A stretch of 61,870 nt of DNA, from the NCBI GenBank assembly GCA_030693415.1, contig JAUYAR010000178.1, forward strand, positions 1 to 61,870, in the 5' to 3' direction. A program made the position numbers and the translations under genes. Shown here piece after piece: positions 10,138 to 41,978 of the stretch (its first letter is position 1; every line of letters starts with the position of its first letter). Under the pieces are notes generated by a model that saw nothing but the letters and a program-made list of their open reading frames with translations, ran no database searches and was not told where the DNA came from. The stretch is from Candidatus Cloacimonadaceae bacterium (lineage in GTDB: Bacteria; Cloacimonadota; Cloacimonadia; Cloacimonadales; Cloacimonadaceae).

Positions 10138-10207
10138 CATAGCATTACGGAGTCAATACGGACTTAGTCCGTAATGAGTCCGTATTGATTCCGTATTGCT
10201 ATGGGGG
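10138..10207. repeat. Nested palindromic repeat, copy 2 of 3
   Basis: Same core as copy 1, starting GCATTACGGAGTC at 10142 and ending with CCGTATTGC. Outer symmetry is CCATAGC/GCTATGG. It sits between two divergent genes (DUF5683 protein and efp), so it cannot be a terminator for both. Confidence 0.85.
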
Positions 10208-21814: not shown

Positions 21815-21896
21815 CCTTCCCCGTGAGCATTACGGAGTCAATACGGACTTAGTCCGTAATGAGTCCGTATTGATTCCGTATTGCTATGGGGGAAGG
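21815..21896. repeat. Nested palindromic repeat, copy 3 of 3
   Basis: CCTTCCCC/GGGGGAAGG outer arms enclose the same core as copies 1 and 2 (GCATTACGGAGTC near 21827 to CCGTATTGC). It ends at, or one base before, a beta-barrel gene remnant at 21898. Confidence 0.85.
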
Positions 21897-30648: not shown

Positions 30649-30870
30649 CTACTTTTCGTCTTTCAGATCGTCTTTCAGGTTATATTTCTTATTGAATTTT
30701 TCGACCCGACCGGCGGTATCGATGATCTTCTGCTTGCCGGTGTAAAACGGATGGCACACGCTGCAGATCTCGACCTGCACATTACCCTTGGTGGAACGCG
30801 TTTCGAAGGTGTTCCCGCAAGCGCAACGAACGGTCACAACCTCATATTTAGGATGAATTCCCTGTTTCAT
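30649..30870 (-). CDS. rpmE: 50S ribosomal protein L31
   Basis: A 73-residue zinc-binding (C+) L31: [24 protein letters not shown] with CAC, then [30 protein letters not shown] with [10 protein letters not shown]. The CxC and CxxC pairs mark the zinc-containing version, which sits at the ribosomal subunit interface. It has its own terminator, and the upstream 30871-31529 region holds repeats. Confidence 0.96.
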
Positions 30871-31529
30871 TTATCTTGCTCCTTGATGAAATTAACTGAA
30901 TTTGAGCCAAGAAAATCCACGTGCGCTATGTGTCAACAAGTTTTTCCCAACCTGCTTATGCCATATCCTTTTACAAATGGCTCGATCCTGCTTGGGGACT
31001 ACCTCAATTCAAGAGGACTCGAGGCTTTCTTATACTGCATTTCCATATAATCTCTCTCTGCTGCAACCAATTTTATCGGTATTTTTGGGGCTGTGGCTCT
31101 CATCCCAAAGCATCTATCGTGAAACATCCATCACAACTATCGCTCTATCAACATCTTCAACATCTATACTGTCACGCAGCATCGGCATGCTGCGCTACAT
31201 CCAAAGTGTTAATTAAGCCTTAATCAAGCGTTAATCAAGCGTAATAAAACTAACGCTTGATTAACGCTTGATTAAGGCTTGATTAACGCAGCCAAGGCGG
31301 AGAGCAGTGTAGCGCCACATGCCGATGCTGCGGAAACGAAGAGTGGATACGAAGAGTGGATACGAAGAGCCAGGCGGAGAATAACCAATGAGTATGGCAA
31401 TGAAAACTAATCACGCTTGGAGGGATGAGCCCCGAAGGCAATCGAGGCGGTTGCCTTTACGATAAACGTAGCACACTGCTTGGAGGGATGAGGACAGTCC
31501 AGGCGACTGTCACTACGATTTTATGTCTT
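30871..31529. other. Repeat-rich gene-free region between rpmE and mnmE
   Basis: About 660 bp. No convincing gene. It contains the 25-bp/28-bp nested inverted repeats (31175-31332), iterated GAGTGGATACGAA near 31340, and two GGACAGTC/TACGAT-type repeats (31415-31463 and 31479-31520). Confidence 0.7.
31175..31332. repeat. Nested inverted repeats: 28-bp perfect IR inside a 25-bp near-perfect IR
   Basis: The inner arms (31215-31242 and 31253-31280) are a perfect 28-bp inverted repeat, AAGCCTTAATCAAGCGTTAA continuing with TCAAGCGT, with a 10-base loop; the left arm repeats TTAATCAAGCG. The outer arms (31175-31199 and 31308-31332) match at 23 of 25 positions and carry CGCAGCATCGGCATG. The whole can form an extended cruciform. 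Confidence 0.9.
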
Positions 31530-32906
31530 CTATTTGCCGATGCAGAAATTGCCGAAAATCCGCTGAAGCATATCGTCCGGAGTGATGATCCCGAGAATCT
31601 CTTCGATGGCGGAACTGGCGGTGATCAGATCAAAGGCAACGAATTCAAAACCGGCGTCCTCCGCGAGAGCGTCCTTGGCTTTTCTTAGGGAATCGAGGCT
31701 GCGTTCAAGAGCTCCGAGGTGGCGGGTATTGGTGATCAGCGGACGATTGACGATTTCCTGAGGCAGCTCAAAGCGGGATATAATCGCAGCGGAGAGGGCG
31801 TCCAAGCCATTTTCCATCACGATGGAAGCTGGGACATGGGGAACTCCGGAAAGAAACGTTTCAAGTTTCGAAGGATCTACCAGATCGGTTTTGGAGAGGA
31901 CAAAGAGACATTTCATGCGAGTTTCTTGAGGTAGTGAAGGCGAATATAACTCAGGAGGCTCACTCCCCAAAACCTGATCCGCGGGAATCAGATATAGAAC
32001 AAGATCGGCTTCCTTCATCAGTTCAAGGCTGCGGTCAATGCCGTGTCGCTCGATTTCGTCAGCGCTTTCGCGGAGTCCCGCAGTGTCGTAAAGCACAATG
32101 GTGTATCCATTTAGAGAAAAACTTTCTTCCAAATAGTCTCTGGTGGTTCCTGGATGGGGGGTCACGATGGCACGGTTGTGTTTCAAAAAAGCGTTGAATA
32201 GTGATGATTTGCCGGAATTAGGCGCTCCTGCAAGGCAGATTCTGATGCCGTCGCGGATATATTTGCCACTATTTCCTTCCATGCAGAGAGCGCCTGTCTT
32301 GGCGCAAAGCATGTCGATCCTGGTTTTCAGGTCGTCGAGATCGATCTGAGGAAGATCCTGATCAGAAAAATCGATGGCGAGTTCACAGCGCATCCTTGCT
32401 TCCGTGATCTCGTCCAAAATGCCTTTCAAATGCGCGGAAAGAATGCCCTGCGCCTGCATCAATGCAGCGGTTTCAGCTTTGGCGCTCCTGGCGTTGATGA
32501 GGTCGTTCACCGCTTCGGCACGGGCAAGATCGAGTTTTCCGTTCAAGACCGCACGCAGGGTAAACTCTCCCGCTTTGGCATGCCGCGCATGACGCAATAG
32601 CACTTTCAGGATTCTGGACGCGAGATGGGGATTGCCATGGCAGGAGATTTCCACGCTTTCCTCGCCGGTGTAGCTGTAGGGTGCGCGAAAAACGCTGATC
32701 AGCACTTCGTCGATGGGGATGCCCTCCTCGTCGTGAAAAATGCCATGCACAAGGGTGTGGGAAGTCGCTTTGAGCAGCTTTTTACGCGGACGGAAATGCT
32801 GTGCTGCGATGCCAACGGAGTTTTTTCCGGAAAGCCTTAGCACCGCGATGGCTGCGCTTCCCGGTGGTGTGATGAGAGCAACGATGGGATCAGAGAGGAA
32901 GATCAT
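31530..32906 (-). CDS. mnmE: tRNA modification GTPase MnmE
   Basis: A 458-residue MnmE. N-terminal formyl-THF-binding domain (DPIVALITPPGSAAIAVLRLSG), central G domain with GAPNSGKSSLFNAFL (P-loop), TPHPGTTRDYLEE and DTAGLRE, and the terminal Cys-containing FCIGK. With MnmG it builds the 5-carboxymethylaminomethyl group on wobble U34 of certain tRNAs. Start ATG follows family length; 292 bp separate it from dxs upstream. Confidence 0.95.
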   Translation of the reverse strand: MIFLSDPIVALITPPGSAAIAVLRLSGKNSVGIAAQHFRPRKKLLKATSHTLVHGIFHDEEGIPIDEVLISVFRAPYSYTGEESVEISCHGNPHLASRILKVLLRHARHAKAGEFTLRAVLNGKLDLARAEAVNDLINARSAKAETAALMQAQGILSAHLKGILDEITEARMRCELAIDFSDQDLPQIDLDDLKTRIDMLCAKTGALCMEGNSGKYIRDGIRICLAGAPNSGKSSLFNAFLKHNRAIVTPHPGTTRDYLEESFSLNGYTIVLYDTAGLRESADEIERHGIDRSLELMKEADLVLYLIPADQVLGSEPPELYSPSLPQETRMKCLFVLSKTDLVDPSKLETFLSGVPHVPASIVMENGLDALSAAIISRFELPQEIVNRPLITNTRHLGALERSLDSLRKAKDALAEDAGFEFVAFDLITASSAIEEILGIITPDDMLQRIFGNFCIGK

Positions 32907-32915
32907 GGCTTAGAG

Positions 32916-33097
32916 AGGTGGAAAGGTGGAAAGGTGGAAAGGTGTGCCTGTAGCGCAGCATGCCACTGCTGCGGAGGTGGAAAGGTGCTTCAGAGATGAG
33001 AGATGAGAGATGAGATAAGCTGGCGCCGAACGAAAGCAATCAGCAGCACATGGTTCATCTAACATCTCACGTCTCATAACTCACTCTCTCATCTCTC
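32916..33097. repeat. Iterated GGTGGAAAG and GAGATGA repeats
   Basis: Three successive GGTGGAAAG units from 32917, one TGTAGCGCAGCATGCCACTG-type repeat (32949-32974) related to the outer arm at 31308, a fourth GGTGGAAAG, then GAGATGAGAGATGAGAGATG and, about 40 bp on, inverse TCTCATCTCTC. No gene. The region continues as low-complexity CTCTGCTCTTG to 33198. Confidence 0.7.
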
Positions 33098-41459: not shown

Positions 41460-41978
41460 TTATTCTCCTTTTTCGCATGTTTAAAGTCTTATCTCAGGGA
41501 CTTTTTGTGTTCGCAGCCACCACTCGGCGGGCGCGTCTATGCAAAGGCAATCACACCATTTTTGCACATCTAATCCATCTTTCCACAAGGCACAGACTGT
41601 CAAGAATAATCTCGAAACGCGGACGGGAAAACTGGCCAACGGATAAACCTGCAATGATTTAGTTTGTGGTTTGGAACGGCTTTCCTTCTTTTCCGGATAA
41701 TTCGATCAAAAATAGACTGAATGCAGGCGGGAAGCATCTTCGGCATACATATCAACATGCAATTTCGGCAAATATGACTACGCATGTTTCTCACCTGATA
41801 ACATTACTTAAGGTATTTATCGGACGAATTTGTGCGGGAGTTTTGTCTATAGTTGTTCTTGAAGCTTGAGGCTTGAGCTGTCTTTGGGAGCGTCTTTGTG
41901 CGGATTTTCTCTTTCCGCAGCATCGGCTATCTATATTTTTGTGAATAAAAAGCTATCCTACAATAATGGAGGCGGTGC
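41460..41978. other. Gene-free stretch between divergent genes
   Basis: 519 bp between YggS (minus) and the surface-protein pseudogene (plus). It contains a half copy of the CCGCAGCATCGGC repeat (41915-41927). No further feature seen. Confidence 0.55.

Follow-up and report, generated by a model that had tools for sequence, protein, structure and literature searches.

The long inverted repeat between the minus-strand genes rpmE and mnmE in this Candidatus Cloacimonadaceae bacterium consists of two unrelated repeat families joined together, outer GTAG REPs and an inner quasi-palindrome. On balance, it is probably a copy of a dispersed and non-autonomous intergenic repeat, composite in structure and of mobile type, that has been amplified in this genome by a RAYT. 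We infer movement of the repeat from sequence comparisons. The DNA analyzed (“the window”) is the whole of a 61,870-nucleotide contig, C178, from a genome of 2.81 Mb in 185 contigs. The relevant features of the window are as follows:

30652 to 30870, minus strand: rpmE (ribosomal protein L31; PF01197, E 2.4e-35), downstream of the element in the direction of transcription
31175 to 31198, minus strand: left REP, an exact copy of GTAGCGCAGCATGCCGATGCTGCG (0 mismatches), GTAG end towards the palindrome
31208 to 31242, plus strand: left arm of the inner palindrome, with 11-bp units at 31209-31219, 31220-31230 and 31231-31241
31243 to 31252, no strand: asymmetric loop AATAAAACTA, known from the window's genome only and, relative to its flanks, inverted compared with most copies
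31253 to 31287, minus strand: right arm of the inner palindrome, with 11-bp units at 31254-31264, 31265-31275 and 31276-31286
31309 to 31332, plus strand: right REP, 2 mismatches, GTAG end towards the palindrome
31332 to 31369, no strand: short tandem repeat with 2.9 copies of a 13-bp unit, at the right REP's outer end
31530 to 32906, minus strand: mnmE (Pfam TrmE_N, MnmE_helical), upstream of the element in the direction of transcription
32950 to 32973, plus strand: solo REP with 2 mismatches, located in the mnmE-dxs interval and adjoining an 8-bp tandem array at 32916-32944
41915 to 41927, minus strand: half of a REP (13 nt), which may be a remnant or may match by chance

The inner arms that a first-pass annotation had called exact over 28 bp (31215-31242 and 31253-31280) were found on re-checking to be perfect reverse complements at 28/28 positions, and over a longer extent (31208-31242/31253-31287) the repeat covers 35 nt at 97%. 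The outer arms (31175-31199/31308-31332) match at 23 of 25 positions, as had been reported, and both the third copy of the outer motif (32949-32974) and its 13-nt half copy (41915-41927) are present. What was described there as an internal TTAATCAAGCG duplication is in fact a set of three 11-bp units of the TTAATCAAGCG type in each inner arm, arranged around the loop AATAAAACTA. Perfect 28-bp arms with loops of up to 20 would be expected ∼2e-11 times by chance in DNA the size of the window. The DNA folding energy of the element region is −69 kcal/mol, versus −23.7 ± 2.9 for shuffled sequences.

The outer arm is a short palindrome with a GTAG tag at one end, the two features by which GTAG REPs are defined (PMC3733652, PMC8266576). 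Allowing up to 3 mismatches, GTAGCGCAGCATGCCGATGCTGCG occurs 187 times in the window's own genome, and the reversed pattern, used as a control, occurs 0 times. These copies are mostly dispersed, and REPs located beside palindromes are intergenic. RAYT transposases are the presumed movers of REP sequences of this kind. The search of the genome returned three Y1/RAYT-like transposase genes, whose Pfam or NCBIfam matches are all weak; one of the three is flanked by the window's REP:

Contig C45 (locus L013), 946 to 1587: Y1_Tnp gene, RAYT-like, with REPs on both sides at 312-335 (3 mismatches) and 1863-1886 (1 mismatch)

The match of this gene to the NCBIfam RAYT model is weak and below the cut-off. 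Its REPs point GTAG-outward, whereas those at palindromes point GTAG-inward, and thus the composite unit does not reproduce the C45 arrangement. The outer (3′) flanks of REPs are rich in locus-specific short tandem repeats, with 43% of 49 REPs reaching a tandem-repeat score that is reached by 3% of random stretches; such repeats occur in the window at 31332-31369 and 32916-32944, and also at REP flanks in loci L252-L289.

Using a 201-bp query, ∼40 separate places were matched throughout the window's own genome, which rules out the local duplication that had been offered as a fallback. A search for further copies gave at least 39 inner palindromes in addition to the 187 outer motifs. All counts of junctions are based on the 39 palindromes that could be read in context. 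None of the 39 lies inside a called gene: 17 are between tandem genes, 7 between divergent genes and 6 between convergent genes, and 9 (mostly near contig ends) are unassigned. A REP is present within 140 bp of the center of 30/39 palindromes, where ∼0.7 such neighbors would be expected from REP density (187 REPs × 280 bp / 2.81 Mb × 39). REPs are present on one side in 26 of the 39, and on both sides with shared junctions in 4. The GTAG end is directed towards the palindrome in 35/35 cases, mostly 49-51 or 60-61 bp from its center, and at 38 bp in copies that are one 11-bp unit short.

All copies in this genome have one loop in common, which is absent from every other genome examined; a single local origin is therefore probable. 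Of 14 informative copies, 11 have the short REP flank on one and the same side of this asymmetric loop. In the other three (the window, L255 and L282) it lies on the opposite side, and so the loop of these copies is inverted with respect to its flanks; the arms may have recombined, or template switching may have occurred between them. Note that this is the only hint in favor of the recombination target that the first-pass annotation had proposed.

In the mechanism that we favor for this genome, a RAYT-type (Y1/HUH) transposase would act on single-stranded REP hairpins, and REP-palindrome-REP units would have been multiplied with the palindrome as cargo. The loop found in all copies of this genome and in no other fits such local amplification. 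The scheme would follow the model of REPINs (PMC3116915); one reservation is that the GTAG ends here point inward. Elsewhere, and more tentatively, the palindrome family may spread by means of another agent that recognizes its sequence.

The two families are independent, since each occurs apart from the other: genomes that yielded no palindrome (e.g. G050-G052) contain related REPs, and palindromes are present in genomes without the window's REP. Of 50 genomes from the window's Cloacimonadota family, 27 contain the inner repeat. The other 23 gave no match, and among them are near-complete genomes from genera in which it is otherwise present. When 125 genomes of the phylum were searched, a single genome outside the family matched, and this match was marginal. 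An exact 25-mer from the center matched 111 stretches in a public genome collection, and among the 80 of these matches that were listed all but two are titled Cloacimonadota or Cloacimonetes. One exception, L189 (MWEH01000198.1, titled “Firmicutes bacterium ADurb.Bin080”), is 92% identical over 1.3 kb to G015, a member of the same Cloacimonadota family; it is therefore probably mis-binned and would then not indicate spread beyond the phylum. The second is an “Atribacteria” contig, L148. The inner palindrome is thus essentially confined to one Cloacimonadota family. No description of Cloacimonadota inverted repeats was found in the literature searched, and this family-specific repeat has apparently not been described previously.

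Copies in relatives occupy different places. All 83 assignable copies are intergenic (34 tandem, 27 divergent, 22 convergent, 0 inside genes), and no pair of relatives' loci has both neighbors in common. The dxs-mnmE gene order is conserved; among 30 mnmE loci read, a palindrome adjoins mnmE only in the window and in G054. Five genomes (G005, G024, G055, G002 and G062) carry palindromes without a Y1_Tnp match, so the inner family as a whole cannot be attributed to RAYT; the reverse case, a Y1_Tnp match where the palindrome was not found, is seen in G013 and G051. In G054, a Y1 gene lies 187 bp from a palindrome.

Of the three guesses made in the first-pass annotation, a MITE-like element is nearest, being borne out by the many intergenic copies at non-orthologous places and falling short in that neither a target-site duplication nor a parent transposon was found and two families are joined. 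A possible alternative, to which we give a distinctly lower probability than to RAYT amplification of a composite, is that the inner palindrome alone is a self-sufficient MITE-like element moved by another transposase, with REPs having inserted beside it or the palindrome having inserted 5′ of REPs. Like a MITE, the palindrome is short, non-coding and dispersed with terminal inverted repeats, and in most genomes it occurs without REPs. One internal-deletion derivative with intact tips is present at three G021 loci, which is consistent with tip-dependent spread, and the constant direction of the GTAG ends is what targeted insertion would give. Against this, scans over offsets and lengths gave no consistent signal of the target-site duplication expected of a MITE, and the tips are less conserved than the center. 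Moreover, a search of five genomes with half-arms recovered no larger element with the palindrome's ends, only deletion derivatives and fragments. No viral contigs bearing the palindrome were found.

The consensus of 118 copies is an odd-length quasi-palindrome of ∼117 bp that reaches to ∼±58 bp, with the tip AAGCAAGGAAGA. GATTAA is strongly conserved at +11, +22 and +33 on both arms and the 5-bp spacers are variable. Conservation of the center is in part a selection effect of the 25-mer search, although copies obtained by similarity search show the same pattern. The 11-bp phasing places the sites on one helix face and suggests an array of GATTAA sites for protein binding. It is conceivable, although unlikely, that the palindrome serves as a mobile platform, offering seven helically phased GATTAA-type sites (the center plus three per arm) to a putative dedicated DNA-binding protein of this bacterial family, and that in each genome it joins the palindromic repeat that happens to be active there (REPs here, others in STCSWMC_36 and UBA5835). 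A further alternative, which we consider quite improbable, is that the array is a selected binding platform for a regulator or a chromosome-organizing protein and that its dispersal is secondary. Units are lost in whole 11-bp steps, which together with the conserved sites and variable spacers would argue for a functional platform of this kind. However, the palindrome is missing from the results for 23/50 family genomes, near-complete ones included, neighboring genes are not common between loci, and copies occur in all gene orientations.

Several observations on flanking and related repeats were also made. Several UBA5835 loci (e.g. L059, L067, L090, L115, L139) share a unit several hundred bases long that looks non-coding and contains the palindrome centrally, and at STCSWMC_36 loci (e.g. 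L158, L163, L190) a repeated flank rich in hairpins lies immediately beyond the palindrome tip; no obvious common flank was seen for HGW-Cloacimonetes-3 copies. In G042, an IS200-like Y1 transposase gene is preceded by ∼21 copies of an 11-bp GATTRAGCARG-type unit (L100 1642-1872, contig C5). The period equals that of the palindrome units, and together with the Y1 gene near a palindrome in G054 this looked like a link, but the unit differs beyond GATTAA. The same genome has a small array of the 11-bp unit GATTAAAGAAT outside any palindrome (L299 2785-2824, contig C19). In the window, an 11-bp tandem unit, AGTCCGTAWTG, occurs three times at each of 228-260, 10166-10198 and 21851-21883.

That the element is a structured RNA, as had also been suggested, or a bidirectional transcription terminator is very improbable despite its highly stable fold: Rfam searches of the window returned tRNAs only and no family at the element, 27 of the 83 relatives' copies lie between divergent genes with no preference for gene ends, and arm mismatches in transcription-oriented copies are equally G-T (51) and A-C (48). 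In shuffling analyses, pairing of arms within a copy was generally no better than pairing between arms of different copies from the same genome. Apparent covariation between arms, calculated across all copies, disappeared under within-genome shuffling, except at the innermost variable spacer in two genomes. The conserved feature appears to be the phased GATTAA sequence and not the hairpin structure as such, which favors recognition as DNA.

The composite can be compared with three known systems. The outer arms resemble the repeats of REPtrons, in which GTAG REPs are associated with a RAYT (PMC3733652, PMC8266576), in their GTAG tag, short palindrome, ∼190 mostly dispersed copies and REP-flanked RAYT-like gene. 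They differ in having a long unrelated palindrome as their neighbor, towards which GTAG is directed, and in that RAYT models match below the curated cut-off. As in REPINs and BIMEs (PMC3116915, PMC8266576), two inverted REPs and a spacer could form one long hairpin, and junctions are repeated at several loci. Unlike in these elements, the spacer of ∼110 bp is a separate dispersed family that elsewhere occurs without REPs, the GTAG ends point inward and most copies carry a single REP. The third comparison is with bacterial MITEs such as the ERIC-like intergenic palindromes, which are named in PMC3733652. When compared by description, these differ from the inner palindrome, which has 11-bp phased GATTAA sites and for which no target duplication or parent transposon was found. 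The inner palindrome is otherwise like ERIC-like palindromes, which are intergenic quasi-palindromes of ∼120 bp with tens of dispersed copies, confined to one bacterial family.

These results document REP/RAYT repeats together with a second, family-specific palindrome in a poorly studied phylum, and provide a natural example of a dispersed repeat that seems to be carried along by another. Because several copies are located at contig ends, the family probably adds to the fragmentation of assemblies. The analysis also cautions against taking such long palindromes for RNA genes, and the phased GATTAA array offers a concrete bait for a putative binding protein.
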